DNA of 64,000 nucleotides from Blastococcus tunisiensis. Its GTDB lineage: Bacteria; Actinomycetota; Actinomycetes; Mycobacteriales; Geodermatophilaceae. Under the pieces are notes generated by a model. The model had not been told where the DNA came from. It saw only the letters and a list, made by a program, of their open reading frames with translations, and did not search any database. Each line of letters opens with the position of its first letter. The first letter of the stretch is position 1. The stretch covers positions 124,001-188,000 of the forward strand of contig NZ_FOND01000003.1 of NCBI RefSeq assembly GCF_900112815.1. The letters run 5' to 3'. Of the stretch, positions 353 to 28,015 are shown piece by piece. The position numbers and the translations under genes were made by a program.

Positions 353-382
353 TTGACGGACGCTAAATGTCTGACATATATT
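353..382 (+). promoter_or_regulatory. Promoter of the CoA-transferase/mutase operon
   Basis: A TTGACG -35 box at 353-358 is separated by 18 bases from a TATATT -10 box at 377-382. This places transcription start near 389. An ATG at 367 that could otherwise extend the next gene lies inside the spacer and therefore cannot be its start. Confidence 0.6.
367..377. promoter_or_regulatory. GntR/FadR-type operator, copy 1 (ATGTCTGACAT)
   Basis: ATGTC-T-GACAT is a perfect odd palindrome lying inside the -35/-10 spacer, as expected for a repressor site. FadR-subfamily GntR proteins bind sites with a GT-N3-AC core, which this has. Four similar sites with the core GTCTGAC occur at 6813, 18881, 24162 and 28006, each in a promoter region of the same cluster. 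Confidence 0.6.
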
Positions 383-465
383 CGTCCCGTCGCGGACACC
401 GAGACGGGGAAGTCTCACGCTCGATGCAGCGGTTCGCGACCGGAGACGAGAGGCATGGGCTGACG

Positions 466-1713
466 GTGACGGCTGACGGCGGCAACGGGCATCCCTCGCC
501 GGGGAGCCCGGTGCTCGAGGGCATCCGGGTGCTGGACCTGACCCAGCAGCTGTCGGGTCCCTACGCGGGGATGATCCTGGCCGACCTCGGAGCCGACGTC
601 ATCAAGGTGGAGGCGCCGCACCGGCCGGACCCCGCCCGCGTGGTTCCCGGCCAGCGCGTCGGCGGGCACAGCTCCTACTACCTGAGCCTGAACCGGAACA
701 AGCGCAGCATCGCCCTCGACCTCAAGGATCCCTGCGACCACGAGGCGTTCATGCGGCTGGTCGAGGAGTCCAACGTCGTCCTGGACAACTTCCGGCCGGG
801 GGTCACGACACGACTCGGTGTCGACCGCGCCGCCCTCGAGGCGCGCAACCCGGCGATCGTCACCTGCAGCGTGACCGGGTTCGGTGAGACCGGCCCGGAA
901 CGGAACCGCCCGGCCTACGACTACCTCATGCAGGCTCTCGCCGGCTCGATGGGCCTCACCGGCGAGCCCGACGGGCCGCCCACCAAGTACGGCCTCTCGG
1001 TGGTCGACCACGTCGGCGGGCTGTTCGCGGTCATCGGGGTCCTGGGGAGCTTGCTCGGCCGGCGTGATCCGCAGGCGCCCGGCCGGCACGTCGACGTGTC
1101 GCTCCTGGACAGCCATCTGTCGATGTTGTCATACGTGGCCGCCGACCTCCTGGCCGGCGGTGAGCCGCCGGTGCGCCAACGACTGTCCTCCCATCCGAGG
1201 GCCGTGGCGGCCCGGGTCTACCGCACCGCCGACGGCTGGGTGGTCCTCATGCCCCTCGCCGAGCACTTCTGGCCCCGGCTGTGCGCCGTTCTCGGCGCCG
1301 ACGAGCTCGCGGACGACCCGCAGTTCGTCGACGCCGAGGCCCGCCTCGCACATCGCGACGAGCTCTTCGCGATCCTCGAACCGCTCGTGGCATCGCGTAC
1401 CACCGCCGAGTGGATGGACCTCATGGTCGCCGCCGACGTCCCGGCCGCGCCGGTCCAGTCTGTCGCCGAGGCCATCGCGATGCCCCAGACGACCGCCCGC
1501 GAGATGGTGGTCGAGCTCGCGCACCCGGCGTACGGCGCCTACCGCGCCATGGGCAATCCGGTGAAGATCTCCGCGTCCGGACCCGCGCTGGTGCGCGGCG
1601 CACCGGAGCTCGGCGAGCACAACGGCGAGATCCTGCACGCCCGTGGGATCCCGGTGCACGACCGGGCGACGCCGTGCCTCCCCGTCGAGCTCCCCGCCGT
1701 GGCCGAGCAGTGA
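466..1713 (+). CDS. CaiB/BaiF family III CoA-transferase
   Basis: Predicted to move CoA from an acyl-CoA donor to a carboxylic acid, activating a substrate for the cluster. The N-terminal region has the family core GIRVLDLTQ followed by GADVIKVE. PAYDYLMQ supplies the expected catalytic Asp at about residue 152, and a DVSLLDSHL segment follows, as in formyl-CoA transferase relatives. The GTG at 466 gives 415 residues, normal for the family, and has AGAGG 12 bases upstream. ATG 424 is an alternative start. ATG 367 is excluded because it lies in the promoter. The stop overlaps the next gene's GTG by four bases, indicating translational coupling. The acid substrate is unknown. Confidence 0.85.
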   Translation: MTADGGNGHPSPGSPVLEGIRVLDLTQQLSGPYAGMILADLGADVIKVEAPHRPDPARVVPGQRVGGHSSYYLSLNRNKRSIALDLKDPCDHEAFMRLVEESNVVLDNFRPGVTTRLGVDRAALEARNPAIVTCSVTGFGETGPERNRPAYDYLMQALAGSMGLTGEPDGPPTKYGLSVVDHVGGLFAVIGVLGSLLGRRDPQAPGRHVDVSLLDSHLSMLSYVAADLLAGGEPPVRQRLSSHPRAVAARVYRTADGWVVLMPLAEHFWPRLCAVLGADELADDPQFVDAEARLAHRDELFAILEPLVASRTTAEWMDLMVAADVPAAPVQSVAEAIAMPQTTAREMVVELAHPAYGAYRAMGNPVKISASGPALVRGAPELGEHNGEILHARGIPVHDRATPCLPVELPAVAEQ

Positions 1714-2510
1714 GCGCCCGGGCGGCCGGCGCCGCGGAAGAACTCGTCGTCGAGCGGCGCGGACGGGTGCTCGAGCTGACGATCAACCGGCCCGACCGGC
1801 GCAACGCCCTCACGCCGAGCCTGATCGGGGCCCTCACCGGTGCGCTCACCGCGGGCGCCGCCGATCCCGAGGTACGGGCCGTCCTGCTGACCGGACAGGG
1901 CCGCAAGGCCTTCTGCGCCGGCTTCGACCTCGGTCACTTCGACGACGCGGGCGCCGCGCCCGGCGGTGAACGCGACCTCGTCGACGGCCTGGCGACGACG
2001 CTGCGCGCGCAGCCCCTGCCGGTCATCGCGGCCGTGAACGGTGCGGCCGTCGGCGCCGGCTGCGACCTCGCCATCGCCTGCGACCTGCGGATCGGTCACC
2101 CCGGCACCCGTTTCGGCATGCCGACGGCGAAGCTCGGCTTCCTGTACGGCACCCGCGGCATCGAGCGGCTGCTGCATACGGTCGGCCTGCCGCTGGCCAA
2201 GGAGATGCTGCTGACCGGCAGTCTGCTGCCGGCGCCCCGGGCCCTGCAGTGCGGCCTGCTGTCGGCGGTGGTCCCCGAGGAGGACCTGCTGTCCGTGGCC
2301 CGCGACGAGGCCGATGTCATCGCCGAGAACGCACCCCTCTCGATGTCGGCGAGCAAGCGCATCGTGGACGTCCTGGCCACCGCGGCGCTGACCGAGCAGG
2401 ACCACGCCGAGATCGTCGCGCTCCAGGACCAGGTGTGGCGCAGCCAGGACGTCGTGGAGGGCCAACGCGCCCACCGCGAGCGTCGTCCCCCGATCTTCAC
2501 CGGGAGGTGA
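1710..2510 (+). CDS. Crotonase-fold protein (enoyl-CoA hydratase/isomerase family), atypical active site
   Basis: This 266-residue crotonase has the oxyanion-hole segments AFCAGFDL and NGAAVGAG. At the positions where classical enoyl-CoA hydratase has its two catalytic Glu residues, the sequence reads GCDLAI (Asp) and GMPTAKLG (Thr). Simple syn-hydration is therefore doubtful, and an isomerase, hydrolase or decarboxylase role is possible. The GTG start overlaps the stop of the CoA-transferase, and the gene is followed eight bases later by the mutase large subunit, so the three genes form one operon. The fold is certain; the reaction is not. Confidence 0.85.
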   Translation: MSARAAGAAEELVVERRGRVLELTINRPDRRNALTPSLIGALTGALTAGAADPEVRAVLLTGQGRKAFCAGFDLGHFDDAGAAPGGERDLVDGLATTLRAQPLPVIAAVNGAAVGAGCDLAIACDLRIGHPGTRFGMPTAKLGFLYGTRGIERLLHTVGLPLAKEMLLTGSLLPAPRALQCGLLSAVVPEEDLLSVARDEADVIAENAPLSMSASKRIVDVLATAALTEQDHAEIVALQDQVWRSQDVVEGQRAHRERRPPIFTGR

Positions 2511-2518
2511 GCTCAGCC

Positions 2519-4105
2519 GTGGACCGAACCCCGGAGCACCGGACCGCATCCGGCCTGCCGATCGAGCCCAGCTACGGGCCCGAGAGCGGCCGCGACCTCG
2601 ACCGCATCGGCAGCCCGGGGGAGTTCCCCTACACCCGCGGCGTGCACCGCGACATGTACCGCGGCCGGCTGTGGACGATGCGCCAGTACTCCGGCTTCGG
2701 CAGCCCCGAGGCGACGAACGAGCGCTACCGCTTCTTGCTGGACCAGGGCCAGACCGGGCTCTCGGTGGCCTTCGACCTGCCGAGCCAGATCGGCTACGAC
2801 TCCGACGACCCGGACGGGGAGGAGGAGGTCGGCCGGGTGGGCGTGCCCATCGACACCCTCGCCGACATGGAGATCGTCTTCGACGGCATCCCGCTGGACC
2901 GGGTGAGCACGTCGTTCACCATCAACGGGACGGCCGCGATCATGCTGGCGATGTACCTCGTGGTCGCCGAGCGCCAGGGTGTTCCGCAGGAGAAGGTCAC
3001 CGGCACGATCCAGAACGACATCCTCAAGGAGTACGTGTCACGGGGGACGTGGATCTTCCCGCCGGACCCGTCGCTGCGGCTGATCGTCGACACGATCGAG
3101 TACTGCGCCGAGCGGGTGCCGCGGTTCAACCCGGTGAGCATCGCCGGAGCCCACTTCCGCGACGCGGGCGCGACGGCGGTGCAGGAGCTCGCCTTCACCA
3201 TCGCCGACGGCATCACCTACGTCGAGCGGTGCGTGGCGCGGGGGATGGACGTCGAGCTCATCGGGAGCCGACTGTCCTTCTTCTTCTACACGCACATGGA
3301 CTTCTTCGAGGAGATCGCCAAGTACCGCGCCGGCCGCCGGATCTGGGCGCGGATCATGAAGGAGCGGTTCGGCGCCACCGACCCCCGGGCGATGATGTTC
3401 CGGGCCGGCGTCGTCTGCGGAGGTAGCTCGCTCACCGCCGAGCAGCCGCAGAACAACATCGTCCGCGTCGCCTACGAGGCGATGGCGTCGGTGCTCGGCG
3501 GCGTGCAGTCGATCTTCACCGCGGCCTGGGACGAGGCGCTGACTCTGCCGTCGCAGGAGACCGCCGAGCTGGCGCTGCGCACCCAGCAGGTGCTCGCGCT
3601 CGAGACCGGCGTCCCCTCGGTCGCGGATCCGCTCGGTGGCTCCTGGTACGTCGAGGAGCTGACCGACCGGTTCGAGGCCGCGGTCCTCACCATCGTCGAC
3701 CGGATCGACGAACTCGGCGGCATGGTGGCGTGCATCGAGTCCGGCTGGGTGCAGTCGGAGATCGGCCAGCGGGCCTACGAGGACCAGCACGACCTGGAGT
3801 CCGGGCGGCGCCCGGTGGTCGGGGTCAACCGGCACGCGCGCGAGGAACCGCCACCGACGGTGGAGTTCTACGAGACGCCACCGGAGGAGGTCGAGCGCCA
3901 GCGGGAGCGGCTGCGCCGGGTCCGCGCCGAGCGGGACGACGGACGGGTACGGGCCGCCCTGGACGCGCTGGCGGCCACAGCCGAGTCGACCGACAACATG
4001 ATGCCCGCCCTCCTCGAGTGCGTCCGCGCGTACTGCACGGTCGGGGAGATGACCGCGACGATGCGGTCGGTCTTCGGCGACTTCCAACAACCCCTGGTGG
4101 TCTGA
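2519..4105 (+). CDS. Coenzyme B12-dependent acyl-CoA mutase, large (catalytic) subunit
   Basis: This 528-residue protein is the TIM-barrel substrate-binding part of the methylmalonyl-CoA mutase family and lacks the B12 domain, which the next gene encodes. Family motifs include RQYSGFG at about residue 55 and [17 protein letters not shown]. Tyr57 matches MCM Tyr89 and Arg175 (SRGTWIFPP) matches Arg207, the carboxylate-binding pair. The segment usually written SGYH reads AGAHFRDAG, so the MCM Tyr243 position is Ala211 while His212 is kept. The two-subunit layout resembles isobutyryl-, 2-hydroxyisobutyryl- and ethylmalonyl-CoA mutases. The substrate is unassigned. The start is GTG 2519 with GGGAGG 11 bases upstream; GTG 2507 overlaps that site. 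Confidence 0.9.
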
Positions 4106-4107
4106 CC

Positions 4108-4500
4108 ATGACTGTTCTCCGGGTCCTCGTGGCCAAGCCGGGCCTCGACGGCCACGACAAGGGCGCCAAGGTCGTCGCGCGCGCCCTGCGCGATGCCGGG
4201 ATGGAGGTCGTCTACATGGGGCTGCGCAACAGCCCGGCCAAGATCGCGGTCACCGCGGTGCAGGAGGACGTCGATGTCGTCGGCCTGTCCGTCCTCTCGG
4301 GGGCGCACCTGTCGCTGAGCAGCAAGGTGCTCGCCGCGTTGCGCGAGTCCGGCGGCGACGACATCCCCGTCGTGGTCGGCGGGACGATCCCTCCGGCCGA
4401 CGTCCCCCGGCTCATCGAGCTCGGCGTCGCCGCCGTCGTCCCGACGTCGACACCCCTGGAGTCGGTCGTATCGGCCGTGCGCGCGGCGGCGTCATCGTGA
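4108..4500 (+). CDS. Cobalamin-binding small subunit of acyl-CoA mutase
   Basis: This 130-residue stand-alone B12-binding domain has the base-off/His-on signature DGHDKG near the N-terminus, followed by GLSVLSGAH and VVVGGTIP, matching the DxHxxG...SxL...GG pattern of methylmalonyl-CoA mutase C-terminal domains. It begins two bases after the large subunit, so the two are almost certainly co-translated and form the active enzyme, which would need adenosylcobalamin. Length and motifs are complete. Confidence 0.92.
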
Positions 4501-4533
4501 CCGGGCGGTTCCGTTCGGCGGCCGTTCTCTCGC

Positions 4534-4539
4534 TAGGCT
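4534..4539 (+). promoter_or_regulatory. -10 box TAGGCT for a probably leaderless GntR gene
   Basis: TAGGCT fits the actinobacterial TANNNT -10 pattern and ends five bases before the GTG at 4545. Transcription would start at or next to the start codon. No Shine-Dalgarno sequence is present in this 44-base gap. Confidence 0.45.
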
Positions 4540-4544
4540 AGGCC

Positions 4545-5318
4545 GTGATCCGCGAATCGTGGCCCCACGGGGACGTGTCCATCGACCCGGAAGAGGAAGG
4601 CGCCGGACCCGCCTACAAGCAGGTCGCCGCCCGCCTCCGGGCACTCATCCTCAGCGGCGAACTCGTGCCCGCTGACCGCCTGCCCTCGGAGGCGGAGCTC
4701 TCCATCCTGTTCAAGGTCAGCCGGAGCACGACGCGGGAGGCCCTGCGGCTGCTGTCCTCCGAGAACCTCATCGTGACCAGTCGTGGACCCACCGGTGGCA
4801 GTTTCGTCGCTCATCCCGAGCCGGGGCACATCCAGGACTTCCTGCAGCTCAACCTGGGGCTGCTGGCCGCCGGCTCCCCGGTGACGGTGCACGCCCTGTT
4901 CGAGGCGCGCGAGCTGCTGGAGACCCCAGCCGCCGGCATGGCGGCGACCCGGCGGACGCCCGAGCAGCTGGAGAAGCTGCGTGCCTGCGTGCGGCCGGCG
5001 GGCGGCGACGACGACCCAGCGCAGCTGTTCGAGATGAACCGCGCCTTCCACGTCCAGCTGCTCGAGGCGGCCGACAATGTCGTGCTGACCACGCTGGCGC
5101 AGCCGGTGTTCGGCGTCATCCGGGGCCGGTTCGGCCGCAACGACGCCGACGAGGCGTTCTGGGGACGGGTCGTGCACGACCACGAGGAGATCCTCGCCGC
5201 CATCGAGGCGGGCGATGCCGACCGGGCCCAGGCCGAGATGCGCCGGCACATCGCCCACCTCGAGACCGCGTACAGCGGCATGGAGCAGCACCTCGCGGGC
5301 GGGCCCCCGGGCGACTGA
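4545..5318 (+). CDS. GntR-family transcription regulator, FadR/FCD subfamily
   Basis: The protein has 257 residues. An N-terminal winged helix (AYKQVAARLRALILSGEL, then LPSEAELSILFKVSRSTTREAL) is followed by an all-helical FCD ligand domain with the usual metal-binding histidines in NRAFHVQLL, HDHEEIL and MRRHIAHLE. FCD regulators usually sense organic acids or acyl-CoA. It lies inside the catabolic cluster behind the mutase genes and is a candidate to bind the repeated GTCTGAC operators; the second GntR gene at 23432 is the other candidate. It probably has its own leaderless promoter. Confidence 0.88.
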   Translation: MIRESWPHGDVSIDPEEEGAGPAYKQVAARLRALILSGELVPADRLPSEAELSILFKVSRSTTREALRLLSSENLIVTSRGPTGGSFVAHPEPGHIQDFLQLNLGLLAAGSPVTVHALFEARELLETPAAGMAATRRTPEQLEKLRACVRPAGGDDDPAQLFEMNRAFHVQLLEAADNVVLTTLAQPVFGVIRGRFGRNDADEAFWGRVVHDHEEILAAIEAGDADRAQAEMRRHIAHLETAYSGMEQHLAGGPPGD

Positions 5319-5358
5319 ACCACAGCGCCGGCACGGGGCCGGCCGAGAAGGAGGGCAC

Positions 5359-6285: not shown

Positions 6286-6340
6286 GCCACCGGGCGGGAC
6301 CGCCGCCGGTGGACGAGGACGACGACGAGAGGTGCTCCGG

Positions 6341-6760: not shown

Positions 6761-6812
6761 AAACCCTCGAACTCGCCGGTCAGGGCTTGACTCGGCTCCC
6801 TTCGTCGACCAC

Positions 6813-6823
6813 TGTCTGACGTA
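6813..6823. promoter_or_regulatory. GntR/FadR-type operator, copy 2 (TGTCTGACGTA)
   Basis: TGTCTGAC is followed after one base by TATATG at 6822-6827, the same spacing to a -10-like hexamer as at the first promoter (368 to 377). It is followed directly by an IclR-type palindrome. Transcription of the PrpD operon probably starts here. No good -35 box is visible, which would suit activator dependence. Confidence 0.55.
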
Positions 6824-6827
6824 TATG

Positions 6828-6842
6828 TGGAACGGTGTTCCA
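6828..6842. promoter_or_regulatory. IclR-type operator, copy 1 (TGGAACGGTGTTCCA)
   Basis: TGGAAC-GGT-GTTCCA is a perfect palindrome of 15 bases. IclR-family sites commonly have this GGAAC...GTTCC form. A near-identical site lies at 12604 upstream of the iclR-like gene of the same cluster, so that protein is the likely binder. Confidence 0.6.
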
Positions 6843-6884: not shown

Positions 6885-8306
6885 GTGGACACGCTCGCAG
6901 CACCCGAGGACGTCCGGTCGGCGACGGGGGTGGCGGCCGGGGGGCTGACCCGCCATCTCGCCGACGCTGCGCGCGCCTCCCGCTTCGAGGACCTGCCCGG
7001 TCCCGTCGTGCGGGTCGCGAAGCACTGCATGCTCGACTGGCTGGGGGTCGCACTCGCCGGTGCGCGCGAGCCCGCCGCGCGGCTGCTCCGCGACGAACTC
7101 GTCGAGCCGGGCAGCTCGGGCCCGTGCACCCTGCTCGACGGGAGCACCGGCGGTGCGCGGGAGGCCGCCCTGGTCAACGGGACGGCCGGACACGCGCTCG
7201 ACTTCGACGACGTCGTCTGGGTCATGACGGGACATCCGACGGCTCCGCTGCTGCCCGCCGTCCTGGCCGTGGGCGAGCTGGTCGACGCGAGCGGCCGTGA
7301 CCTGCTGACCGCCTTCGTCGCCGGGTTCGAGACCGAGTCGCGGATCGGTGCCGCGGTGGCGCCGGGCCACTACGACGCCGGTTTCCATGCCACGGCGACG
7401 CTGGGCACCTTGGGTGCGGCGGCCGGCTGCGCGCGGCTGCTGGACCTCGACGAGGACCAGTGGCAGCACGCATTCGGGATCGCCGCGACGTCGGCCGCGG
7501 GCCTGAAGTCGATGTTCGGGTCGATGTGCAAGCCGATGCACGCCGGCAACGCCGCTTCCCAGGGCGTGCTCGCGGCACGGCTGGCCGCCCGCGGCTTCAC
7601 CGCCGCGACCGATGCGATCGAGCGGCCGCAGGGCTTCGGGCCCACCCACACCGCGACGTTCCACCCCGAGGCGGGGCAGACCCCGTTCGGGGATCCCTGG
7701 TACGTGCGCGAGGTCCTCTTCAAGTTCCACGCCGCTTGCTTCCTCACCCACTCGGCCATCGAGGGGCTGCTGCGGCTCAAGGAGGCAGAGGGTCTCGCGG
7801 CCGACGACGTCGACGCGGTGCTGCTTCGGGTGGAGCCGGGGCACCTGGCCGTCTGCAACATCCCGGAGCCGCGCTCCGGCCTCGAGGCGAAGTTCAGCCT
7901 TCGGTTCACCGCCGCGATGGCGGTGCTGACCGGCCGCACCGACGAGGCGGCCTTCACCGACGACGTCGTGCGCGACCCGCGCTTCACCACCCTGCGCGAC
8001 CGGGTGACCGTCGTCCCCGAACCGGGCCGGCCGGCCCACGAGACCGACGTGCAGGTGCGGACCCGCGACGGGCGCACCCTGCGCACCCGGGTGGACATGC
8101 AGCAATGGGCGGCCGACGACGAGATCGACGCCCAGGAACGACGACTCGTCGCCAAGTTCCGCTCGCTGGTCGGTACCGGAGACGCGGCCGAGCGGCTGCT
8201 CGAGGCCGTCCTGCGGGTGGACGAATTGTCGTCGGTGCGCGAGCTGACCCGGCTCGTGGCCGACGTGGCACGGGCGGCGAACGGCGCCGAGGGAGGACCA
8301 GCGTGA
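6885..8306 (+). CDS. MmgE/PrpD family protein (2-methylcitrate dehydratase-like)
   Basis: The 473 residues cover the whole MmgE/PrpD fold: a helical N-terminal domain (DWLGVALAGAREPAARLL, NGTAGHALDFDDV, GHPTAPLLPAVLAVGE) and a smaller alpha/beta domain. The family includes 2-methylcitrate dehydratase, cis-aconitate decarboxylase and iminodisuccinate epimerase, so a lyase or decarboxylase acting on a tri- or dicarboxylate is plausible. A longer frame runs upstream, but it would place the GntR and IclR operators inside the gene. The GTG at 6885 with GGAGAGGGG just upstream is therefore chosen. It opens a six-gene operon. Confidence 0.85.
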   Translation: MDTLAAPEDVRSATGVAAGGLTRHLADAARASRFEDLPGPVVRVAKHCMLDWLGVALAGAREPAARLLRDELVEPGSSGPCTLLDGSTGGAREAALVNGTAGHALDFDDVVWVMTGHPTAPLLPAVLAVGELVDASGRDLLTAFVAGFETESRIGAAVAPGHYDAGFHATATLGTLGAAAGCARLLDLDEDQWQHAFGIAATSAAGLKSMFGSMCKPMHAGNAASQGVLAARLAARGFTAATDAIERPQGFGPTHTATFHPEAGQTPFGDPWYVREVLFKFHAACFLTHSAIEGLLRLKEAEGLAADDVDAVLLRVEPGHLAVCNIPEPRSGLEAKFSLRFTAAMAVLTGRTDEAAFTDDVVRDPRFTTLRDRVTVVPEPGRPAHETDVQVRTRDGRTLRTRVDMQQWAADDEIDAQERRLVAKFRSLVGTGDAAERLLEAVLRVDELSSVRELTRLVADVARAANGAEGGPA

Positions 8307-17106: not shown

Positions 17107-17921
17107 CGGGCCCGGGCGGCGTCTTCGGCCAGCGTCCGCAACCATCCGTCGGCGACGGAGGCGAAGTCGTCGACCTCCTCCATCGGGTAGTGACCGATCC
17201 CCTCGAGGACGAGGGTGCGGGCGCCCTGGATCTGGCTCCCGGTCCACGCGACCTGGTCGAGATCGAGCCAGAAGTCGTCGTCGCCGACGACGAGATAAGT
17301 CGGGCAGGTGATGTTCGCCAGTCCGGCCCGGATGTCGTGGCTGAACCATCCGATGAGGTCCGACGTCGTGATGATCGGGTCCTCGCGGCGGTGCATGGCC
17401 GCGATCATCTCGACGCGTTCCGCCGGAACGGTCCGGCCGCAGACGGCCAGGGTTCCGTAGTAGGTCCGGTCCGTGCGGCTGGGTGACGACGCGTCCTCCA
17501 TGCCACGGTCGAGCGCCGCGGCGCCGCCGGGCTTGGGGGCGTTCACCTCGGCGGCCATCGCGACCACGCCCGACAGCCGGTCGGAGATGCGCGTGGCGAT
17601 GTCCAGCGAGATCTTCCCGCCGATGGAGCAGCCCATGACGTACGGGCGGTCCAAGCCGAGTTCGTCGATCAGGTCGATGCACCACTCGGCGTAGCGCCCC
17701 AGGTCGCGCACCGGTCCGCCGACAGCCGGCTCCGACCGCCCGTGGCCGGGGAGGTCGGGGACGATCACCCGGTACCCGAGGGCCGCCAGGCCGGTCAGCG
17801 TGTGCCGCCACTGGACGCCGCTCTGGCCGGCGGTGTGGATGCAGAGGACGGCGGGGCCCTCGCCGGCGGCCTCCACGTAGGCGAGGCTGCCGCCCAGGTC
17901 GACGTACTGCGACTCGATCAC
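17103..17921 (-). CDS. Alpha/beta-fold hydrolase
   Basis: The 272 residues include the oxyanion segment LCIHTAGQSG, VPDLPGHGRS, the nucleophile elbow GCSIGG with Ser at about residue 98, the acid in VVGDDDFW and the His in GIGHYPMEE. The catalytic triad is complete. Relatives include C-C bond hydrolases of meta-cleavage pathways and esterases; which applies here is open. The GTG at 17921 overlaps the stop of the MaoC-SCP2 gene by four bases, so the two are coupled. Confidence 0.85.
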   Translation of the reverse strand: MIESQYVDLGGSLAYVEAAGEGPAVLCIHTAGQSGVQWRHTLTGLAALGYRVIVPDLPGHGRSEPAVGGPVRDLGRYAEWCIDLIDELGLDRPYVMGCSIGGKISLDIATRISDRLSGVVAMAAEVNAPKPGGAAALDRGMEDASSPSRTDRTYYGTLAVCGRTVPAERVEMIAAMHRREDPIITTSDLIGWFSHDIRAGLANITCPTYLVVGDDDFWLDLDQVAWTGSQIQGARTLVLEGIGHYPMEEVDDFASVADGWLRTLAEDAARAR

Positions 17922-18790
17922 ACCGGTGCTCCCGCCATCTCGCGTGCCGTCTCCCAGATGCGCATCAGGGCCTTGGTCAGCCGCAGGTAGTCGTAGCCGC
18001 TGCCGGTCAGGCTGAACTCGCCGCGCAGGGTCCGGGGGATGAAGTCGTTGCGCGGGCCGGTCATCAGCTGCGCCCACACCAGCTCGCTGGCCTGCACGGT
18101 GAACGTGGGGCCGAGCAGCGCCTTCGGCGCGGCCTCGAGGATCGCGCCCTTGTAGATCCGCAGGCTGGTGGGCACGGTGCCCGCCTGCAGCCCGATCGTG
18201 CCGTCGAACGAGCGCGTGGCGGCGACGAACTCCTCGTCCTGACCCAGCCGGGCGGCGAGGTCCTTGGTCCACCCGGGGCCGCAGAAGTCCAGCGCCGAGG
18301 GGTCGGACGAAGGGTCGGCCGAGGTGCGTGCCTGGACCATGAAGGCCGTCGTGCCCTCCTGGACGACGGTGCCGTCGTCTCGCTTGAGGAGCACGTGCCG
18401 GTTGATCACGCCCCGGTCGCGGGCGCTGGTGCGCCGGCACCGCGTGATGGTGATGTCGAAGATCAGCGTGTCGCCGACGAAGACTGGCTTGAGGTAGCGC
18501 CAGTTGGTGTCGAGCAGCCCGATCACCGTCGAGTCGACGATGTGCAGATCGTGCAGCGCGCCGAAGAACCGGGCCAGGCCGTAGGGCCCGTGCACGAGCC
18601 GCTGACCGAACTGGGTGCCGGCGGCGTAGTCGGCGTCGACGTGGATGGGGGCCTTGTCGCCGGAGACCTCCGCGAACTGCAGCAGGGCCCCCTCGGTGAC
18701 CTCGTGCGGAGGGCTCTGAAAGCTCTGGCCCACCCGGAAGTCCTCGAAGTACATGTCGTTCGCCTCGGCCGGGCCGGGGGTTGCCGCCAT
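17918..18790 (-). CDS. MaoC hydratase fused to an SCP2-like lipid-binding domain
   Basis: Residues 1-150 form a MaoC/hydratase-2 hotdog with the complete catalytic motif VSGDKAPIHVD (Asp45, His50). Residues from about 165 to 290 form a second domain whose layout fits an SCP2 sterol-carrier domain: a Trp near the start, a GTIGLQ strand, FTVQASELVWAQLMTG and GEFSLTGSGYDYLRLTKAL. Together this suggests an (R)-specific enoyl-CoA hydratase that carries its own binding domain for a bulky hydrophobic acyl-CoA. The ATG has GAGGAG upstream and is the first gene of the minus-strand operon under the operator at 18881. Confidence 0.82.
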   Translation of the reverse strand: MAATPGPAEANDMYFEDFRVGQSFQSPPHEVTEGALLQFAEVSGDKAPIHVDADYAAGTQFGQRLVHGPYGLARFFGALHDLHIVDSTVIGLLDTNWRYLKPVFVGDTLIFDITITRCRRTSARDRGVINRHVLLKRDDGTVVQEGTTAFMVQARTSADPSSDPSALDFCGPGWTKDLAARLGQDEEFVAATRSFDGTIGLQAGTVPTSLRIYKGAILEAAPKALLGPTFTVQASELVWAQLMTGPRNDFIPRTLRGEFSLTGSGYDYLRLTKALMRIWETAREMAGAPV

Positions 18791-18868
18791 GCTGTCTCCT
18801 CACCTGCCTGAGCCTTCGGAACGCGGTGCCCGGTCGAGTGCCGGTGGCGGTCCACGCCTCGTCGCCGC

Positions 18869-18898
18869 ACGCTAGCGCATTCGTCTGACATATGTCGC
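18869..18898 (-). promoter_or_regulatory. Promoter of the MaoC-SCP2 operon
   Basis: On the minus strand a GCGACA -35-like box (18898-18893) is separated by 18 bases from a TAGCGT -10 box (18874-18869). The GntR-type operator lies in the spacer. The 5' leader would be about 70 bases. Confidence 0.45.
18881..18896. promoter_or_regulatory. GntR/FadR-type operator, copy 3 (CGTCTGACATATGTC)
   Basis: The site has the GTCTGACAT core and also contains the overlapping perfect palindrome GACATATGTC. It lies between the divergent MaoC-SCP2 and azlC genes. Flanking bases GCACGCTAGCG resemble GCACGGTAGCG next to copy 4 at 28006. Confidence 0.55.
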
Positions 18899-18976: not shown

Positions 18977-19684
18977 GTGCGGGCGAGGAGACGAGCCCGC
19001 GGGGGAGTGGTGCAACCAGCCCGGCCCCGTGCGGACGAGCCCTGGCGCCGTGGCGTCCGGGACTCCCTCCCGTTCGCCACCGCGTCGTTCGTGCTGTCCC
19101 TGTCCTTCGGCGTCGTGGCCGTGGAGTCCGGCTTCTCCCCGGTGGCCGCGGTGGTCATGTCGGCGGTGGTCTACGGCGGTGCCGGGCAGTTCGCGCTCGT
19201 GGGCATCCTGTCCGCGGGGGGCGCACTGGGCTCCGCGGTCGGGGCCGCTGCCCTGGTGAACGGCCGCTTCGTGCCGATGGGGTTCGCGCTCGGCCCCTCG
19301 CTGCGGGGTGGTCCGGTGCGCCGCGCGCTGGAGGGGCAGACCTCGATCGACGTGTCGTGGACCATGGCGGCCCGCGGCGACGGGACCTTCGACCGCACGT
19401 ACCTGTTCGGCCACAGCGCCGTCCAGTACGTGGCCTGGGTGGCCGGCACGCTGGCCGGTGTCCTGGTGCCCGGGATGGACGCCCGCGCGCTCGGGCTGGA
19501 CGTCATCTTCCCGGCCTTCTTCCTCGCCCTGCTGGTCAAGGAGGTGCGCAACGGCCGCCGGCTGGTCGTGGCGCTCCTCGCCGCCGCGATCGCGTTCGCT
19601 CTGGTGCCTGTCCTGCCGCCGGGTGCGCCGGTTCTGGTGGCCAGTGTCGCGGCTCTGGTCGGGCTCCGAGAGAACTGGAGGTAG
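18977..19684 (+). CDS. azlC: AzlC-family branched-chain amino acid/organic acid exporter, large subunit
   Basis: About 235 residues with several membrane segments (LPFATASFVLSLSFGVVAVE, AAVVMSAVVYGGAGQFALVG, LVVALLAAAIAFALVPVL) and the AzlC motifs GGAGQFA and LVNGRFVPMG. AzlC with AzlD exports branched-chain amino acids or analogues. GTG 18977 has CGAGG six bases upstream; GTG 19007 and 19010 are alternatives that shorten the Arg-rich N-terminus. Its place among the catabolic genes, opposite a regulated promoter, suggests efflux of a branched or toxic pathway acid. Confidence 0.82.
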   Translation: MRARRRARGGVVQPARPRADEPWRRGVRDSLPFATASFVLSLSFGVVAVESGFSPVAAVVMSAVVYGGAGQFALVGILSAGGALGSAVGAAALVNGRFVPMGFALGPSLRGGPVRRALEGQTSIDVSWTMAARGDGTFDRTYLFGHSAVQYVAWVAGTLAGVLVPGMDARALGLDVIFPAFFLALLVKEVRNGRRLVVALLAAAIAFALVPVLPPGAPVLVASVAALVGLRENWR

Positions 19685-19686
19685 GC

Positions 19687-21625: not shown

Positions 21626-21631
21626 TTCCGT

Positions 21632-21648
21632 CGGGCCGTACCGGCCCG
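21632..21648. terminator. Hairpin after the acyl-CoA synthetase gene
   Basis: CGGGCCG-TAC-CGGCCCG is a perfect 7-bp stem with a three-base loop directly after the stop codon. There is no T run, so partial termination or 3'-end protection is as likely as full termination. Confidence 0.4.
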
Positions 21649-21694
21649 TGCGTTCGTACGCATTCATCCCACCGAACGAGAGCGAGTCCTGAAG

Positions 21695-22153
21695 ATGCGC
21701 GTGTTCACCGGCCCCGACGACCTGCTGGCCAGCATCGGCACCGAGATCGGGGTGAGCGACTGGCTGACCATCGAGCAGGACCGGATCGATCTGTTCGCCG
21801 AGGCCACCGGCGACCACCAGTGGATCCACGTGGACGTCGAGCGGGCGAAGGCCGAGAGCCCTTTCGGCGCTCCGATCGCGCACGGCTACCTGACCCTGTC
21901 GCTGCTGGTGCCACTCCAGAAGCTGGTGTTTCGCGTCGAGGGCGTGCGGATGGGCGTCAACTACGGCCTGAACAAGGCGCGCTTCCCCTCCCCGGTGCCG
22001 GTCGGCAGCCGGCTGCGCGACCGGATGGAGCTCGTCGATTGCGTGCCGGTCGAGGGTGGCGGTGTCCAGGTGACGTTCCGGCACACGGTCGAACGGGACG
22101 GCGCCCCGAAGCCGGCGCTCGTCGCGGAGAGCATCGTCCGCTACTACTTCTGA
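21695..22153 (+). CDS. MaoC-family (R)-specific enoyl-CoA hydratase
   Basis: A 152-residue single hotdog with the intact active-site motif ATGDHQWIHVD (Asp and His conserved), then PIAHGYLTLSLLVPL and VNYGLNKARFPSPVPVGSRLR, the typical NodN/MaoC pattern seen in CoA ester hydratases. It is probably co-transcribed with the MFS gene 25 bases downstream. Confidence 0.87.
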   Translation: MRVFTGPDDLLASIGTEIGVSDWLTIEQDRIDLFAEATGDHQWIHVDVERAKAESPFGAPIAHGYLTLSLLVPLQKLVFRVEGVRMGVNYGLNKARFPSPVPVGSRLRDRMELVDCVPVEGGGVQVTFRHTVERDGAPKPALVAESIVRYYF

Positions 22154-22178
22154 ACCGCACCGGGCACGAGCGGCTCCG

Positions 22179-23417
22179 GTGAGCGGGCACCAGGGGGACG
22201 GCGGGCCGCGCAACTCGTTCGCGCTCCTGCTGGACAGCGCGGTGGGGCCGTTGTTCGTGGCCAAGCTGCTGGGCAACTCCGGTATCTGGATCCAGAACAT
22301 CGCGGGCGCCAGCCTGATCTACGAGATCACCGGGTCGGTCTTCCTCGTCGGCCTGATCAGCTTGGCCCAGTTCGCCCCGCAGGTGCTCTTCTCCCCGCTC
22401 AGCGGGGCGATGGCCGACCGTGGCGACACGCGACGGCAGCTGGTGCTGGGACGGTCGTTCTGCTTTCTCGGGGGAGCGGTCCTCGCCGGTTGGATCTGGG
22501 CCACGGGTGATCTCGAGGCCGTTCCCGCCTGGCTGGTGATGGCGGCGGCGTCCCTCGTCGGCATCGGGTACACGATCGGCAGCCCGGCCCTGCAGGCGCT
22601 GATGCCGACGCTCGTGCGCCCGGGGGAGATGGGCCGCGTCGTAGCGCTGGACAACCTGACGTTCGCGGTCGGCCGTGCCGTCGGTCCGGCCGTCGGCGGG
22701 GTGCTCGCTGCCACCGCCGGCTACGCCGTGGCCTTCGCGGTGGCTGCGGCGGCACAACTGGTCTTCGTCGTCGTCGTGGCGACGGTCAGGATCCCGGGCG
22801 CCGTCCGGGTGGAGGGCGCTAGCTACTCGGTCCGCGACGGGCTGCGCTACGTGCGGACCGATCCGGTCGTCGCACTGGTCATCGCCGGCGTGGCGGCCGT
22901 GGGGGTGGGGGCCGATCCGGCGATCACGCTGGCGCCCGCTCTGTCGGATTCCCTGGGCGGCGGGCCCGGGCTCGTCGGATCGTTCGCCTCCGCCTTCGGC
23001 GTCGGTGCGATCGTCGGCTTCTTCCTGCAGGTGGGACTGCTCCGGTTCCTGGACTACGCCCGGCTGGCGCCGCTCGGACTGGTGCTCCTCGCCGGAGGCT
23101 CGGCCGCGCTCCCGTTCGCCACCGATGCCAGGGCGGCCGTCGCGGCGTTCGGAGTGGGGGGCGTGGGGATGACCCTGGCGCTGACCGGCTTCACGACGTT
23201 GCTCTACGACCGGGTTCCGCGCCAGTACCTCGGCCGGATCATGGCGCTGTGGATGGTCGGGTTCGTCGGGTCCCGGCCGCTGGCGGCAGCCCTCGGCGGC
23301 GGCCTGGCGGATCTGTTCTCGGCGGACGTGGCGCTGGCGGGGACCGCGGTCGTGGTGCTGGTGGTCGCGTTCGTCACCCGGCCGGCGGTGCTGCGACGTC
23401 CGGTACCGGGCCGGTGA
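22179..23417 (+). CDS. MFS transporter
   Basis: A 412-residue integral membrane protein with about 12 hydrophobic segments, for example SLVGIGYTIGSPALQALMPT and ALAGTAVVVLVVAFV, and a short basic loop PLSGAMADRGDTRRQ matching the MFS loop 2-3 motif. It resembles the enterobactin exporter-like/DHA3 group. Position suggests uptake or export of the cluster's substrate or product. The GTG start follows the MaoC gene by 25 bases. Confidence 0.83.
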   Translation: MSGHQGDGGPRNSFALLLDSAVGPLFVAKLLGNSGIWIQNIAGASLIYEITGSVFLVGLISLAQFAPQVLFSPLSGAMADRGDTRRQLVLGRSFCFLGGAVLAGWIWATGDLEAVPAWLVMAAASLVGIGYTIGSPALQALMPTLVRPGEMGRVVALDNLTFAVGRAVGPAVGGVLAATAGYAVAFAVAAAAQLVFVVVVATVRIPGAVRVEGASYSVRDGLRYVRTDPVVALVIAGVAAVGVGADPAITLAPALSDSLGGGPGLVGSFASAFGVGAIVGFFLQVGLLRFLDYARLAPLGLVLLAGGSAALPFATDARAAVAAFGVGGVGMTLALTGFTTLLYDRVPRQYLGRIMALWMVGFVGSRPLAAALGGGLADLFSADVALAGTAVVVLVVAFVTRPAVLRRPVPGR

Positions 23418-23431
23418 CGGAGACCGGAGGG

Positions 23432-24097
23432 TCAGCGCCGCCGAGTCGGTCCGAGCCGGCGGACGGCGATGTTCTCGGTGCCCAGCCGGTGCTCGTCGCT
23501 GGTCCGGACCAGCTCCCGGGCGTCCCTGTTCCGGACGGCCTGGATGATCTGCTCGTGCCCGACCACGATGTCGTGGGACGACTGGATCTCGTGCAGGTAC
23601 AGGGACCGGTAGAAGCTGGACATGTACCAGAGCCGCGAGACCTCCTCGCGGATCAGCTTCAGCGGCGAGTACTCGAACAGCGCGAAGTGGAACCGGCTGT
23701 TCAGCTCCTGGAACCGGTCCTGTTCCTCGTCGGGGTCGGTCTGCCGCAGCTCGCCGTTGAGCCGGACGAGTTTGGGGACGTCGACCTCGGCCAGGTCGAT
23801 CGAACGCAGGATCTCGGTCTCGAGCAACCGGCGCATGAGGTAGATCTCGGACAGGTCGTCGCTGCTGAAGCGGGACACCCGGTAGCCGGTGTTCGGCTTG
23901 TAGTCCAGGACCCCCTCGGCGGCGAGGGTGGAGAGCGCCTCGCGCAGCGGGATCCGGCTGACGTTCAGCTGCTCGGCCAGCTCCGACTGGTGCACCTTCT
24001 CGCCCGGGAGCAGCGCCCCGGAGAGGATCAGTTTCCGGATCGCGCCGAGGCACCGGAGAACGCTGGTCTCCGCACCGGCGACGTCGTGCTGGAACAC
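23432..24097 (-). CDS. GntR-family transcription regulator, FadR/FCD subfamily
   Basis: A 221-residue protein: winged helix (IRKLILSGALLPGEKVHQSE, LAEQLNVSRIPLREALSTLA) plus an FCD domain (LNSRFHFALFEYS, VVGHEQIIQAVRNRD, SDEHRLG). The GTG at 24097 has AGGAG seven bases upstream and gives normal FCD-regulator length; a further upstream ATG at 24151 would read through the promoter. A TATACT -10 box lies at 24139-24134 and a GTCTGAC-type operator at 24162, so autoregulation is likely. With its own operator next to it, this is the stronger candidate for the regulon's repressor. Confidence 0.88.
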   Translation of the reverse strand: MFQHDVAGAETSVLRCLGAIRKLILSGALLPGEKVHQSELAEQLNVSRIPLREALSTLAAEGVLDYKPNTGYRVSRFSSDDLSEIYLMRRLLETEILRSIDLAEVDVPKLVRLNGELRQTDPDEEQDRFQELNSRFHFALFEYSPLKLIREEVSRLWYMSSFYRSLYLHEIQSSHDIVVGHEQIIQAVRNRDARELVRTSDEHRLGTENIAVRRLGPTRRR

Positions 24098-24133
24098 CGA
24101 GGATCTCCTGCCTGCCTGCCGGTTCGAGCCGAA

Positions 24134-24139
24134 CAGTAT
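24134..24139 (-). promoter_or_regulatory. -10 box TATACT of the GntR gene
   Basis: On the minus strand TATACT is an excellent -10 match, about 37 bases from the chosen GTG start. It lies within the near-palindrome GTATAC, which could be a further operator half. Confidence 0.5.
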
Positions 24140-24161
24140 ACAAAGTTGCATGTTCTGCTTA

Positions 24162-24172
24162 TGGTCAGACAG
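24162..24172. promoter_or_regulatory. GntR/FadR-type operator, copy 5 (TGGTCAGACAG)
   Basis: Read on the minus strand it is CTGTCTGACCA, sharing the GTCTGAC core with the other four sites and resembling the E. coli FadR half-sites. It lies between the divergent GntR gene and the crotonase operon. Confidence 0.5.
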
Positions 24173-24176
24173 AAGG

Positions 24177-24203
24177 GCTGCCACCCACGGAGGTGGCGGC
24201 AGC
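24177..24203 (+). other. Hairpin in the 5' leader of the crotonase operon
   Basis: GCTGCCACC-CACGGA-GGTGGCGGCAGC can fold into a stem with one three-base bulge. It lies 100 bases before the start codon. Any role in attenuation or mRNA stability is speculative. Confidence 0.3.
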
Positions 24204-24305
24204 CGGAGGCGTTCGCCGGGGCCCCAGTCCCCGCCCGCGGCAGCTGCACCGGCTCGCACGGGAACCGTGCGCGGACCAGACCGCCGCAGGGAGGATGGCA
24301 GGGCG

Positions 24306-25114
24306 ATGGGTGCCGAGGAGTACGGCGAGCGGTTCTCGGAGGGCCCGGTGCTGGCGTCCTGCGACGCGGGCGGGATCCTGCGGATGACCCTCAACCAGCC
24401 GGCCCGCAAGAACGCCATGAGCCTCGAGGCGTGGGAGGCGATGTTCGACGTCCTCCGGCTGGCCGAGTACGACCCTGACGTCCGGGTGCTGGTGATCACG
24501 GGGGCCGGCGGCGACTTCTGCGCCGGCGCGGACATCTCGTCGGCGGCGGCGGGTCACCCGCTGAGCCGCATCCAGCACATCGCGAAGACGCCGATCCTGC
24601 TGCACGACTTCCCGAAGCCGGTCCTGGCGCAGGTCGAGGGCGTCGCCGTGGGCGCCGGCTGGAACATCGCGCTGGCGTGCGACCTGGTGGTGGCCTCCAC
24701 CACGGCGCGGTTCGCGCAGCTGTTCGTCAAGCGCGGGCTGTCGGTGGACTGGGGCGGCTCGTGGCTGCTGCCGCGAATGGTCGGGCTGCAGCAGGCCAAG
24801 AGGCTGACCATGCTCGGCGACTTCGTCTCCCCGCAGGAGGCCGAGCAGCTCGGCCTGGTCACCTGGGTGAAGAGCCCCGAGGAGATCGGCCCGTTCGTCG
24901 ACGAGCTGGCCGCGCGGCTGGCGGCCGCCCCGCCGATCGCCCTGTCGCAGAGCAAGTCACTGATCGACCAGGGGACGATGTCGTCCTTCACCGACGCGCT
25001 GGCCAACGAGGCACGGGCTCAGGCCGTCAACCACGCCACCGCCGACGCCGCGATCGCGCGGCAGGCATTCGCCGCGAAGAGCGAACCGGAGTTCACCGGG
25101 AAGTGGGCAGTTCG

Positions 25115-25118
<4 letters not shown>
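24306..25118 (+). CDS. Crotonase-family enoyl-CoA isomerase/hydratase (PaaG-like active site)
   Basis: A 270-residue crotonase with FCAGADISS for the oxyanion hole and GVAVGAGWNIALACDL. The two Glu residues of classical hydratases are absent. Instead RGLSVDWGGSWLLPRMVG carries an Asp in the position used by PaaG-type and dienoyl/enoyl-CoA isomerases, so isomerisation is more likely than hydration. ATG 24306 is used; an out-of-frame ATG lies 11 bases upstream. It overlaps the next crotonase gene by four bases and follows the divergent GntR promoter. Confidence 0.87.
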
Positions 25119-27003
<1,885 letters not shown>

Positions 27004-27017
27004 GGTGGTCGAGACGC

Positions 27018-27057
27018 CGAAAGGGGCGCGGACCTGTCCGGTCCTCGCCGCCTTTCG
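27018..27057. terminator. Bidirectional terminator hairpin
   Basis: CGAAAGG-GGCGC-GGACC pairs with GGTCC-TCGCCG-CCTTTCG around a short loop, between the convergent flavoprotein and SDR genes. The A-rich and T-rich arms let it work in both directions. Confidence 0.6.
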
Positions 27058-27071
27058 TCGTGCGGCGCCGA

Positions 27072-27830
27072 TCAGCGCATCATGACCCGCCCGCCGTCGA
27101 CGGACAGGACCTGGCCGGTCATGTAGCTGACCTCCTCGGAGGCGAGGAAGACGTAGGCGCCCGCGATCTCGTCGGGCTCGGCCCAGCGGTGCAGCGGAAT
27201 CTCGGCGAGGTACTTGGTGCTGAATCGCTCCTCGGTGCGGATCTTCTCGGTCATCGGCGTCGCGGCGGCCGGGGCGACGGCGTTCACGATGATGTTGTCG
27301 CCGGCGAGCTCGCGGGCCGCCGATCGGGTCATCCCGAGGAGGCCGGACTTGGCGACGGAGTAGTTGATCTGGCCGATGGTGCCCTGGATGCCGGCTGCGG
27401 ATGTGGTGAAGATGACCCGGCCCCACTTGCCGGCGCGCATGCCGTCCACGACCGCCTGAAGCCAGTAGAAGCTGCCGTTGAGATGGGTGTCCATGACGTC
27501 GGACCACTGCTGGTCCGTCATCTTCCACAGCATTGCGGGGCGGGTCACGCCGGCGTTGGCGACGAGGATCTCGATCGGCCCGAGCTCAGAGGCGATCCGC
27601 TGCGCCGCGTCGTTGACGGACTGGCGGCTGGCGACGTCGTTGACGACGGCGATCGCGGTTCCGCCAGCGGCGGTGATCTCGTCGCTGACCGCCTTGGCGT
27701 TGTCGATATTGATGTCGGCGACGGCGATCTTGGCGCCCTCTTCGGCGTAGCGCAGCGCAATGCCGCGGCCGATGCCCTGACCGCCACCCGTGACGACCGC
27801 GACCCTGCCGCTCAGTCTTCCCGTGCTCAT
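27072..27830 (-). CDS. Short-chain dehydrogenase/reductase (FabG-like)
   Basis: A 252-residue classical SDR: TGGGQGIGRG coenzyme loop, LVANAGVTRPA, catalytic Ser in FTTSAAG and YSVAK for Tyr and Lys, and a C-terminal MTGQVLSVDGG. It is probably a 3-hydroxyacyl-CoA or hydroxy-acid dehydrogenase for the cluster. The ATG has GGAGG upstream. Its promoter region 180 bases upstream carries operator copy 4, so it belongs to the regulon although it stands alone at the cluster edge. Confidence 0.88.
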   Translation of the reverse strand: MSTGRLSGRVAVVTGGGQGIGRGIALRYAEEGAKIAVADINIDNAKAVSDEITAAGGTAIAVVNDVASRQSVNDAAQRIASELGPIEILVANAGVTRPAMLWKMTDQQWSDVMDTHLNGSFYWLQAVVDGMRAGKWGRVIFTTSAAGIQGTIGQINYSVAKSGLLGMTRSAARELAGDNIIVNAVAPAAATPMTEKIRTEERFSTKYLAEIPLHRWAEPDEIAGAYVFLASEEVSYMTGQVLSVDGGRVMMR

Positions 27831-28005
27831 GCTGTACCTCCGTATGTCGAAGAGCCATGACCGCTCGGACTGCGAGTCATTCGCCGGAGTGACGACGCTC
27901 TGCAGAGGGCTCACCGGGCCCGTGGGGTGCGCCACCACCCATGCCGTTCGGCGGCGAGCGACGTCCATCAGGCGCTGCACCCTCGCCAGCGCACGGTAGC
28001 GTATG

Positions 28006-28015
28006 TGTCTGACAT
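28006..28015. promoter_or_regulatory. GntR/FadR-type operator, copy 4 (TGTCTGACAT)
   Basis: The core is identical to copy 1 over TGTCTGACAT. It lies upstream of the SDR gene, next to a TACCGT -10-like box on the minus strand (27998-27993). Flanks GCACGGTAGCG resemble those of copy 3. Confidence 0.55.

Follow-up and report, generated by a model that had tools for sequence, protein, structure and literature searches.

The catabolic cluster and its copies of GTCTGAC

The window analysed here, a 64,000-nucleotide stretch of the Blastococcus tunisiensis genome (contig NZ_FOND01000003.1, positions 124,001 to 188,000), begins with a 28-kb cluster of genes related to acyl-CoA catabolism. Two FadR-type regulators with GntR and FCD domains, GntR1 and GntR2, are encoded within it, as a first-pass annotation made from the DNA letters had stated. 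The genes relevant to this analysis are the following.

424..1713, plus: CoA-transferase family III, first gene of its unit; start uncertain (424, 466 or 511)
1710..2510, plus: enoyl-CoA hydratase/isomerase (PF00378, 170.9 bits)
2249..4105, plus: acyl-CoA mutase large subunit, probably starting in fact at about 2510-2540; nearest PDB sequence, 2-hydroxyisobutyryl-CoA mutase large subunit
4108..4500, plus: acyl-CoA mutase small (B12-binding) subunit (PF02310, 85 bits)
4545..5318, plus: GntR1, GntR and FCD domains; proposed repressor of the regulon
6885..8306, plus: MmgE/PrpD family protein (nearest PDB sequence, IDS-epimerase); putative target of operator 2
17918..18790, minus: MaoC-like dehydratase; candidate target of operator 3
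18977..19684, plus: AzlC-type transporter; candidate target of operator 3
23432..24097, minus: GntR2, GntR and FCD domains, PDB relatives including McbR; unlikely to read this operator
27072..27830, minus: short-chain dehydrogenase; candidate target of operator 5

The same annotation had proposed that five intergenic copies of the word GTCTGAC tie the 28 kb into a single regulon. All five were recovered, at 369, 6814, 18883 and 28007 on the plus strand and at 24164 on the minus strand, and each lies upstream of genes when the best-supported start codons are used. The word is absent across 28014-64000, in line with the annotation's remark on the remaining regions of the window. A sixth copy had been overlooked, and the flanks GCACG-TAGCG, which had been assigned to the third and fourth copies, are in fact common to the third (18881) and the fifth (28006). 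The sites, including two candidates left of the window, are listed below.

364..380, plus: operator 1, TAAATGTCTGACATATA; ahead of the unit CoA-transferase / enoyl-CoA hydratase / acyl-CoA mutase / gntR
4100..4106, plus: sixth GTCTGAC, overlying the stop codon of the mutase large-subunit gene; not operator-like (independent-matrix score -1.7)
6809..6825, plus: operator 2, ahead of the MmgE/PrpD gene, whose start is probably 6885; matrix score 11.9
18878..18894, plus: operator 3, between the divergent MaoC (minus) and AzlC (plus) genes; matrix score 17.9
24159..24175, minus: operator 4, the weakest candidate, between gntR2 (minus) and an enoyl-CoA hydratase gene (plus); score 6.7
28002..28018, plus: operator 5, TATGTGTCTGACATTTG; about 180 bp upstream of the minus-strand short-chain dehydrogenase gene; score 19.5
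C26:112249: new operator candidate, 11.75 kb left of the window, before a branched-chain-type ABC transporter
C26:108304: weaker operator candidate, left of the window

A predicted promoter (TTGACG-18-TATATT, 353-382) surrounds operator 1, with the core word between its -35 and -10 elements and the palindrome overlapping the -10. The promoter scan found no promoter-like pair at the four other window sites or at C26:112249. Site 1 was also considered as a start-codon artefact, as ATG TCT GAC opens the longest open reading frame (ATG at 367). This was rejected because the CoA-transferase domain begins 49 residues later, at residue 50 of that frame, and because the frame has further possible starts downstream, at 424, 466 and 511.

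An extended site nearly confined to the cluster

The bare word provides little support for a regulon. Its six copies fall below the mean of 13.23 in shuffled sequence, with at least six reached by 99 of 100 shuffles. Intergenic position is likewise weak evidence, because 10 of 17 background copies also lie outside called-gene cores, one of the ten being the new operator candidate itself (L138:8249). These counts come from 19 background stretches, of which seven have a YGTCTGACRT match and most of those were picked for it, and from a crude gene caller, which counts site 4 as genic but leaves outside genes the 4100 copy, whose letters run across the large-subunit stop (frame end 4105) just short of the small-subunit start at 4108. 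Since the bare core is not enriched, counting gave way to matrices whose training and test genomes were kept apart.

A longer imperfect palindrome, of about 17 bp and with a clade consensus of approximately TAAAYRTCTGAYRTTTA, seems to be the functional site. A matrix trained only on other genomes, in which two of the 16 training sites from genus g6 (gntR-side) were weighted with the wrong, prpD-side subgroup, scores at least 11.9 at five places in 429 kb of the own genome. These are sites 1, 5, 3 and 2 and C26:112249, all confined to one 40-kb stretch, with operator 1 the best of the 429 kb at 32.0. When up to three mismatches are allowed, the 5.04-Mb genome has two matches to TAAAYRTCTGAYRTTTA, at sites 1 and 5 (control 0), and 365 kb of own background has none; these are the only two of seven own-genome sites to fit at this level. 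Mismatches number one at site 1, three at site 5, four at site 2 and five at site 3, while site 4 is not matched within six, and its status as an operator is doubtful.

Simpler patterns agree with this picture. YGTCTGACRT has 11 matches genome-wide, four of them in this 28 kb, against two for the reversed-pattern control. Similarly, WNNGTCYGACVHWW has 11 genome-wide matches (control 2), seven of which fall inside C26:108300-152017, including all six with GTCTGAC, a count that is partly circular as the pattern was derived from these sites and their relatives. Model R1, which was built without the window sites, gave a single genome match at E<=10 among the 150 of 489 candidates scored. This match is site 1 (E 0.076), so the scan backs this site while setting too strict a bar for the others. 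The extended site is thus nearly confined to the cluster, as these computations show. The 28-kb boundary does not hold, as the candidate regulon seems to extend about 16 kb left of the window.

All five window sites read GT-CTG-AC and so have the GT-N3-AC palindrome in A/T-rich surroundings described as typical, though not universal, of FadR-subfamily operators (PMC4494728). The wider TKGT/ACMA boxes, a common site consensus rather than a definition and one from which some members depart (PMC4494728), are not present because each site lacks either the outer T or the K (pre-spacer letters ATGT, CTGT, TCGT, CTGT and GTGT). No paired operators occur within 200 bp of the window sites.

GntR1 and the loci of its relatives

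Both domains of GntR1 score above cut-off (PF00392, 62.7 bits; PF07729, 93.9 bits), which places it in the FadR subfamily. Histidines of the FCD domain at the FH, DH/EH and RRH-type positions are kept in most GntR1 relatives, where they would hold a metal and a carboxylate. The best NCBIfam models are LldR (102.3 against a cut-off of 311), NanR (89 against 260) and PdhR (75.6 against 330). The GT-N3-AC spacing is common to GntR1 and this group, yet all scores are far below the curated cut-offs and GntR1 is placed in none of the three. Its PDB relatives are 7c7e, 2di3 and 6az6, of which 2di3 is LldR of Corynebacterium glutamicum (PMC4494728).

The annotation had proposed a check of relatives' loci. 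With up to three mismatches allowed, 17 of 21 GntR1-relative loci carry the palindrome, at 30 places in all (control 0), and none of seven GntR2-relative loci does, with the reservation that the palindrome was partly read from the same relatives and that eight g6 genomes and two Rhodococcus loci are not independent. For this reason GntR1, and not GntR2, is named as the probable regulator. A matrix from the own genome's seven sites scored above 17.0 in 14 of 21 GntR1-relative loci, 0/7 GntR2-relative loci and 0/80 mutase loci, the last being a negative set made of the best 80 of 213 relatives found by a mutase query, among which no GntR1 relatives are listed at 1e-10. In those 80 loci the palindrome turns up at 14 places, compared with 19 for the reversed control, which is background, and their best matrix score of 17.0 exceeds the best of seven GntR1-relative loci (L116, L118, L119 and L132-L135). 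In 18/21 GntR1-relative loci versus 0/7, the best score was more than 3 above the reversed control of that locus; a bare excess means little because five of the seven GntR2-relative loci also beat their control, by less than 3. MmgE/PrpD-like genes are present in 18 of the 21 GntR1-relative stretches versus none of the seven, and a GTCTGAC site stands upstream of the MmgE/PrpD gene in 8/8 g6 loci. Because relatives of GntR1 carry the same word beside matching genes, the repeated word is very probably a GntR1 binding site.

The linkage has exceptions. Four of the 21 loci (L120, L132, L133 and L183) are missing the palindrome. L120 and L183 have good matrix scores despite this, the best match in L133 lies 5.7 kb from gntR, and no operator site was found in L132 although the recognition helix matches. 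In L119, L132 and L135, the best matrix match is no better than the reversed control. Within the genus, no GntR1 match (E<=1e-30) was obtained in the other 15 of 16 genomes, five of which are less than 90% complete.

Variation among the relatives follows two lines. In some, the core drifts to GTCTGAT or to ATCTGAT, the latter with the outer pair changed to AT-CTG-AT. In several, two operators stand 64, 74, 75, 76, 84 or 115 bp apart, near whole DNA turns, a spacing that would suit looping or cooperative binding on one DNA face. This phasing (P about 0.026 in a rough simulation with five chosen spacings and the 75-bp pairs left out) is a lead.

Proposed regulation, known systems and significance

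We consider it highly probable that the cluster is a local FadR-type regulon, in which a GntR1 dimer would occupy the imperfect palindromic operator of about 17 bp, with GTCTGAC as its core, and repress the units until a carboxylate ligand releases it. Where the sites lie and how they are linked to GntR1 relatives are computed results; binding, repression and ligand are inferred from them. At operator 1, GntR1 would sit on the promoter of its own unit between -35 and -10. Further targets would be the MmgE/PrpD gene, the MaoC/AzlC pair, the short-chain dehydrogenase and, left of the window, the branched-chain-type ABC transporter, perhaps together with a lyase / CoA-transferase / MaoC / acyl-CoA dehydrogenase operon in that region. 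The ligand, most likely the pathway substrate or an early product, would bind the FCD domain and cause release. Of the original regulon claim, a FadR-type GntR operator linking several transcription units stands, with one regulator of the two favoured.

Other readings of the sites were weighed. An activator site, or a site read by a regulator outside the cluster, is improbable. Operator 1 alone has a recognisable promoter, GntR1 binding is a prediction, and the extra flanking sequence common to operators 3 and 5 could be another element; against this, the site and GntR1 relatives co-occur across genera and families, and operator 1 reaches into the -10 region, where repressors usually bind. Slightly less probable is reading by GntR2, alone or with GntR1. 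GntR2 has the same two domains, and site 4 lies about 70 bp before its likely start, yet this is the weakest site, the palindrome is missing from all seven loci of GntR2 relatives, and GTCWGAC is absent from these short loci of about 3.6 kb each. Moreover, the gntR2 promoter has a different AT-rich inverted repeat with the window's only GTATAC.

Chance combined with codon bias is very improbable as a general account, although it may explain site 4 and the 4100 copy. In this explanation, a meaningless GTCTGAC gathers outside genes in a 72% G+C genome because it contains a TGA stop in one frame and TCT, rare at high G+C, in another. The count below expectation (6 against 13.2) and the similar placement of background copies (10/17) fit such an origin; the specificity of the extended site and its linkage to relatives of GntR1, not of GntR2, do not.

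The pathway was approached through gene content. On the Rhodococcus plasmid pDND3A, a GntR1 relative adjoins MaoC, CoA-transferase III, MmgE/PrpD, acyl-CoA dehydrogenase and CoA-ester lyase genes, a complete five-type module of the itaconate/methylsuccinate kind. In the own genome, four of these types lie in L138:4201-8189 and MmgE/PrpD at 6885, so they do not form one operon. Proteins of the operon left of the window score below the equivalog cut-offs for RipB/Ich (197.5 against 340) and RipC/Ccl (172.5 against 375), and for the lyase the citE model scores slightly above RipC/Ccl; they are predicted enzymes, named by resemblance only. We give an even chance to the substrate being an itaconate/methylsuccinate-like branched dicarboxylate.

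Comparable gene types (hydratase, CoA-transferase, MmgE/PrpD, acyl-CoA dehydrogenase and citramalyl-CoA lyase) are found in the published itaconate/methylsuccinate degradation cluster of Pseudomonas and Cupriavidus (PMC12290011). They stand together beside the Rhodococcus GntR1 relative, whereas here they are split over two regions and, unlike in that cluster, are accompanied by an acyl-CoA mutase and an ABC transporter. Neither "GntR" nor "regulator" occurs in the main text of PMC12290011, and a literature search with most subscription papers outside its reach found no GntR regulator of such a module.

The core itself has precedents. For instance, LhgR of Pseudomonas putida W619, a GntR-family regulator of L-2-hydroxyglutarate catabolism and of a dicarboxylate catabolic gene, has footprinted sites TAGTCTGACAA and TTGTCTGACAA with the same GTCTGAC core (PMC8206213). 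It differs from GntR1 in genes, ligand and phylum, and its flanks are unlike TAAAY/RTTTA. Another case is AnsR, an actinobacterial catabolic repressor of the FadR subfamily in C. glutamicum, whose site ACCTGTCTGACAGCT has the same core and is backed by mutated probes in gel shifts; it controls an asparaginase/aspartase/permease operon from downstream of the transcription start (PMC9145765).

In summary, the finding is solid but conventional gene regulation, in which comparative evidence gives an uncharacterised GntR regulator an operator and a predicted regulon, whose members outside the window include an ABC transporter and perhaps a lyase operon. Some actinobacteria, it suggests, place an itaconate/methylsuccinate-like pathway under a FadR-type repressor. 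More tentatively, and with somewhat less confidence than the substrate, an actinobacterial FadR-type GntR clade may sense a branched C5-dicarboxylate (itaconate- or methylsuccinate-like) and control its uptake and degradation, with a core that has drifted from GTCTGAC to GTCTGAT and ATCTGAT and paired operators in several relatives. Such operator-core drift among members of one regulator clade offers material for studying the evolution of GntR-DNA recognition, and FadR-type control of such a pathway would provide an inducible promoter and perhaps a biosensor for branched dicarboxylates.

GTCTGAC sites and their gene setting

By Pfam scans, the window gene order is CoA-transferase III, enoyl-CoA hydratase, acyl-CoA mutase large subunit, B12-binding small subunit and the regulator GntR1, followed by a 3-hydroxyisobutyrate-dehydrogenase-like protein, a CMD protein, MmgE/PrpD, acyl-CoA dehydrogenase, CoA-transferase, thiolase and more acyl-CoA genes. 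Among solved structures, sequence comparison places 2-hydroxyisobutyryl-CoA mutase nearest to the mutase. The stretch to the left of the window (L138; C26, contig coordinates) holds genes for AzlC and for a branched-chain-type ABC transporter, as well as an operon that encodes an HpcH/HpaI lyase, a CoA-transferase, MaoC and an acyl-CoA dehydrogenase. The first-pass annotation had proposed a single GntR regulon with five GTCTGAC operators; a motif search of the window recovered all five, together with a sixth copy that had been overlooked (4100), and none in 28014-64000.

369 (+): GTCTGAC, site 1
4100 (+): GTCTGAC, spanning the stop codon of the mutase large-subunit gene
6814 (+): GTCTGAC, site 2
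18883 (+): GTCTGAC, site 3
24164 (-): GTCTGAC, site 4
28007 (+): GTCTGAC, site 5
24131-24155 (given on +): AT-rich inverted repeat GAACAGTATACAAAGTTGCATGTTC in the promoter of gntR2 (the second GntR gene), different from the GTCTGAC operator
L138:8249-8255 (C26:112249): operator candidate left of the window, before the ABC transporter
L138:4304-4310 (C26:108304): weaker candidate with a GTCCGAC core, between the AzlC gene and the lyase operon
L138:3614-4330 and window 18977-19684: one AzlC-type transporter gene in each place, facing an operator candidate
L138:1650-3527: ORF at the cluster's left edge, beyond the AzlC gene, lyase operon and ABC transporter; possible IS481-type transposase (IS481-type leucine-zipper and HTH matches)

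As a 7-mer, GTCTGAC is rarer in the window than shuffles predict (6 versus 13.23), and background copies also lie mostly outside called genes (10/17, from stretches partly picked for such matches and a crude gene caller, one of the ten being the new operator candidate), so neither the copy count nor the intergenic location is by itself much proof. Common flanks, earlier ascribed to copies 3 and 4, belong to the pair at 18881 and 28006. Operators 3 and 5 (window 18867-18893 and 27991-28017) have an extra common flank, GCACG-TAGCG-AT, ahead of the core, perhaps a duplicated promoter.

Predicted operators beside GntR1 relatives

Relatives of GntR1 (43-51% identity in search tables) were found in 20 other genomes among 298 of the order (E<=1e-45) and in one more family of the phylum, where the search covered 396 genomes (E<=1e-50); 21 of the 23 listed places form the comparison set. 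In one genus of the same family, all eight genomes have one GTCTGAC whose distance to the edge of the gntR match is 74-85 bp and another upstream of MmgE/PrpD. A matrix built from 16 sites of that genus (two weighted with the wrong subgroup) and one from locus L128, excluding window sites, was run across the window plus 365 kb of own background. Five places scored at least 11.9: site 1 (32.0), site 5 (19.5), site 3 (17.9), C26:112249 (16.1) and site 2 (11.9). The next place scored 11.3, site 4 6.7 and the copy at 4100 -1.7. A sequence model from 11 such sites, run genome-wide with 150 of 489 first-look candidates scored, reported site 1 alone at E<=10 (E 0.076).

Reciprocally, a matrix from seven sites of the own genome (five in the window, two to its left) scored above 17.0 in 14/21 GntR1-relative loci, mostly beside the gntR, prpD or CoA-transferase unit, among them G548 of the other family (26.0); top scores were 13.5 in seven GntR2 loci and 17.0 in 80 mutase loci (best 80 of 213). 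Taken by themselves, the scores of 12-15 in L116, L118, L119, L134 and L135 do not convince, and in L119, L132 and L135 the match does not exceed its own reversed control.

A longer palindrome, TAAAYRTCTGAYRTTTA, was derived from the GntR1-relative loci. Allowing up to three mismatches, 17/21 of these loci hold it, at 30 places in all (reversed control 0), versus 0/7 GntR2 loci; own background has none, mutase loci 14 (reversed control 19), and the whole own genome two, sites 1 and 5. It is missing at this threshold from L120, L132, L133 and L183, although L120 and L183 have good matrix matches. The recognition helix reads RNT in L133 and the plasmid locus L187, versus RST in other relatives; L132 has RST, yet no site. 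Six plasmid records hold a GntR1 relative; all three examined carry the palindrome, two being close relatives and the third (L187) matching only at three mismatches without the TCTGA core. Pairs of operators occur in L116, L118, L119, L121, L122, L128, L135, L186 and L188, with spacings of 64, 74, 75, 76, 84 or 115 bp that come close to whole helical turns; no pairs were found around the window sites.

Promoter placement and known counterparts

The core of operator 1 lies inside the spacer of a predicted promoter (TTGACG-18-TATATT), with the palindrome overlapping the -10. Such placement over a promoter is a classic repressor position. The other sites stand roughly 70-180 bp upstream of the probable starts, where a promoter scan recognised none. 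GntR1 carries an FCD sensor domain (Pfam) and would be a repressor that a carboxylate releases from DNA; it may also regulate itself, as gntR1 sits in the unit behind operator 1. The repeat GAACAGTATACAAAGTTGCATGTTC, holding the only GTATAC of the window, is possibly GntR2's own operator.

The characterised GntR-family regulators LhgR (site TTGTCTGACAA; PMC8206213) and AnsR (site ACCTGTCTGACAGCT; PMC9145765) have cores identical to the window sites, and FadR-subfamily sites typically have 3 nt from GT to AC in A/T-rich surroundings (PMC4494728), so the operator set appears to belong to an already known type. The wider TKGT/ACMA boxes described there for the subfamily are lacking in the window sites. 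In relatives, the drift of the core and the pairing of operators at distances of 64-115 bp are less ordinary features and serve as leads.

Pathway and accessory nature

GntR1-relative stretches contain genes resembling MmgE/PrpD (18/21), CoA-transferase (14/21) and acyl-CoA dehydrogenase (12/21). For example, Rhodococcus gordoniae pDND3A has the order gntR, MaoC, CoA-transferase, MmgE/PrpD, acyl-CoA dehydrogenase, CoA-ester lyase, with palindromes in the gntR-MaoC gap. The Amycolatopsis relative is adjoined by MaoC, CoA-transferase and lyase; MmgE/PrpD and acyl-CoA dehydrogenase are missing from the stretch examined. At L188:9416-10729, on the Rhodococcus pyridinivorans SB3094 plasmid, an IS256 transposase gene separates the CoA-transferase gene from the annotated, short MmgE/PrpD gene. 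For Cupriavidus and Pseudomonas enzymes, PMC12290011 shows that a gene set of the kind found on pDND3A degrades itaconate and methylsuccinate. Here, matches to the RipB/Ich and RipC/Ccl models fall below cut-offs, with the citE model slightly ahead of RipC/Ccl, which leaves itaconate itself and a related branched dicarboxylate equally likely as the substrate.

No GntR1 match at E<=1e-30 was found in the other 15 of the 16 genus genomes searched. GntR1 is thus an accessory trait, as perhaps is the cluster; together with the IS481-type ORF at the cluster edge, this would fit acquisition.
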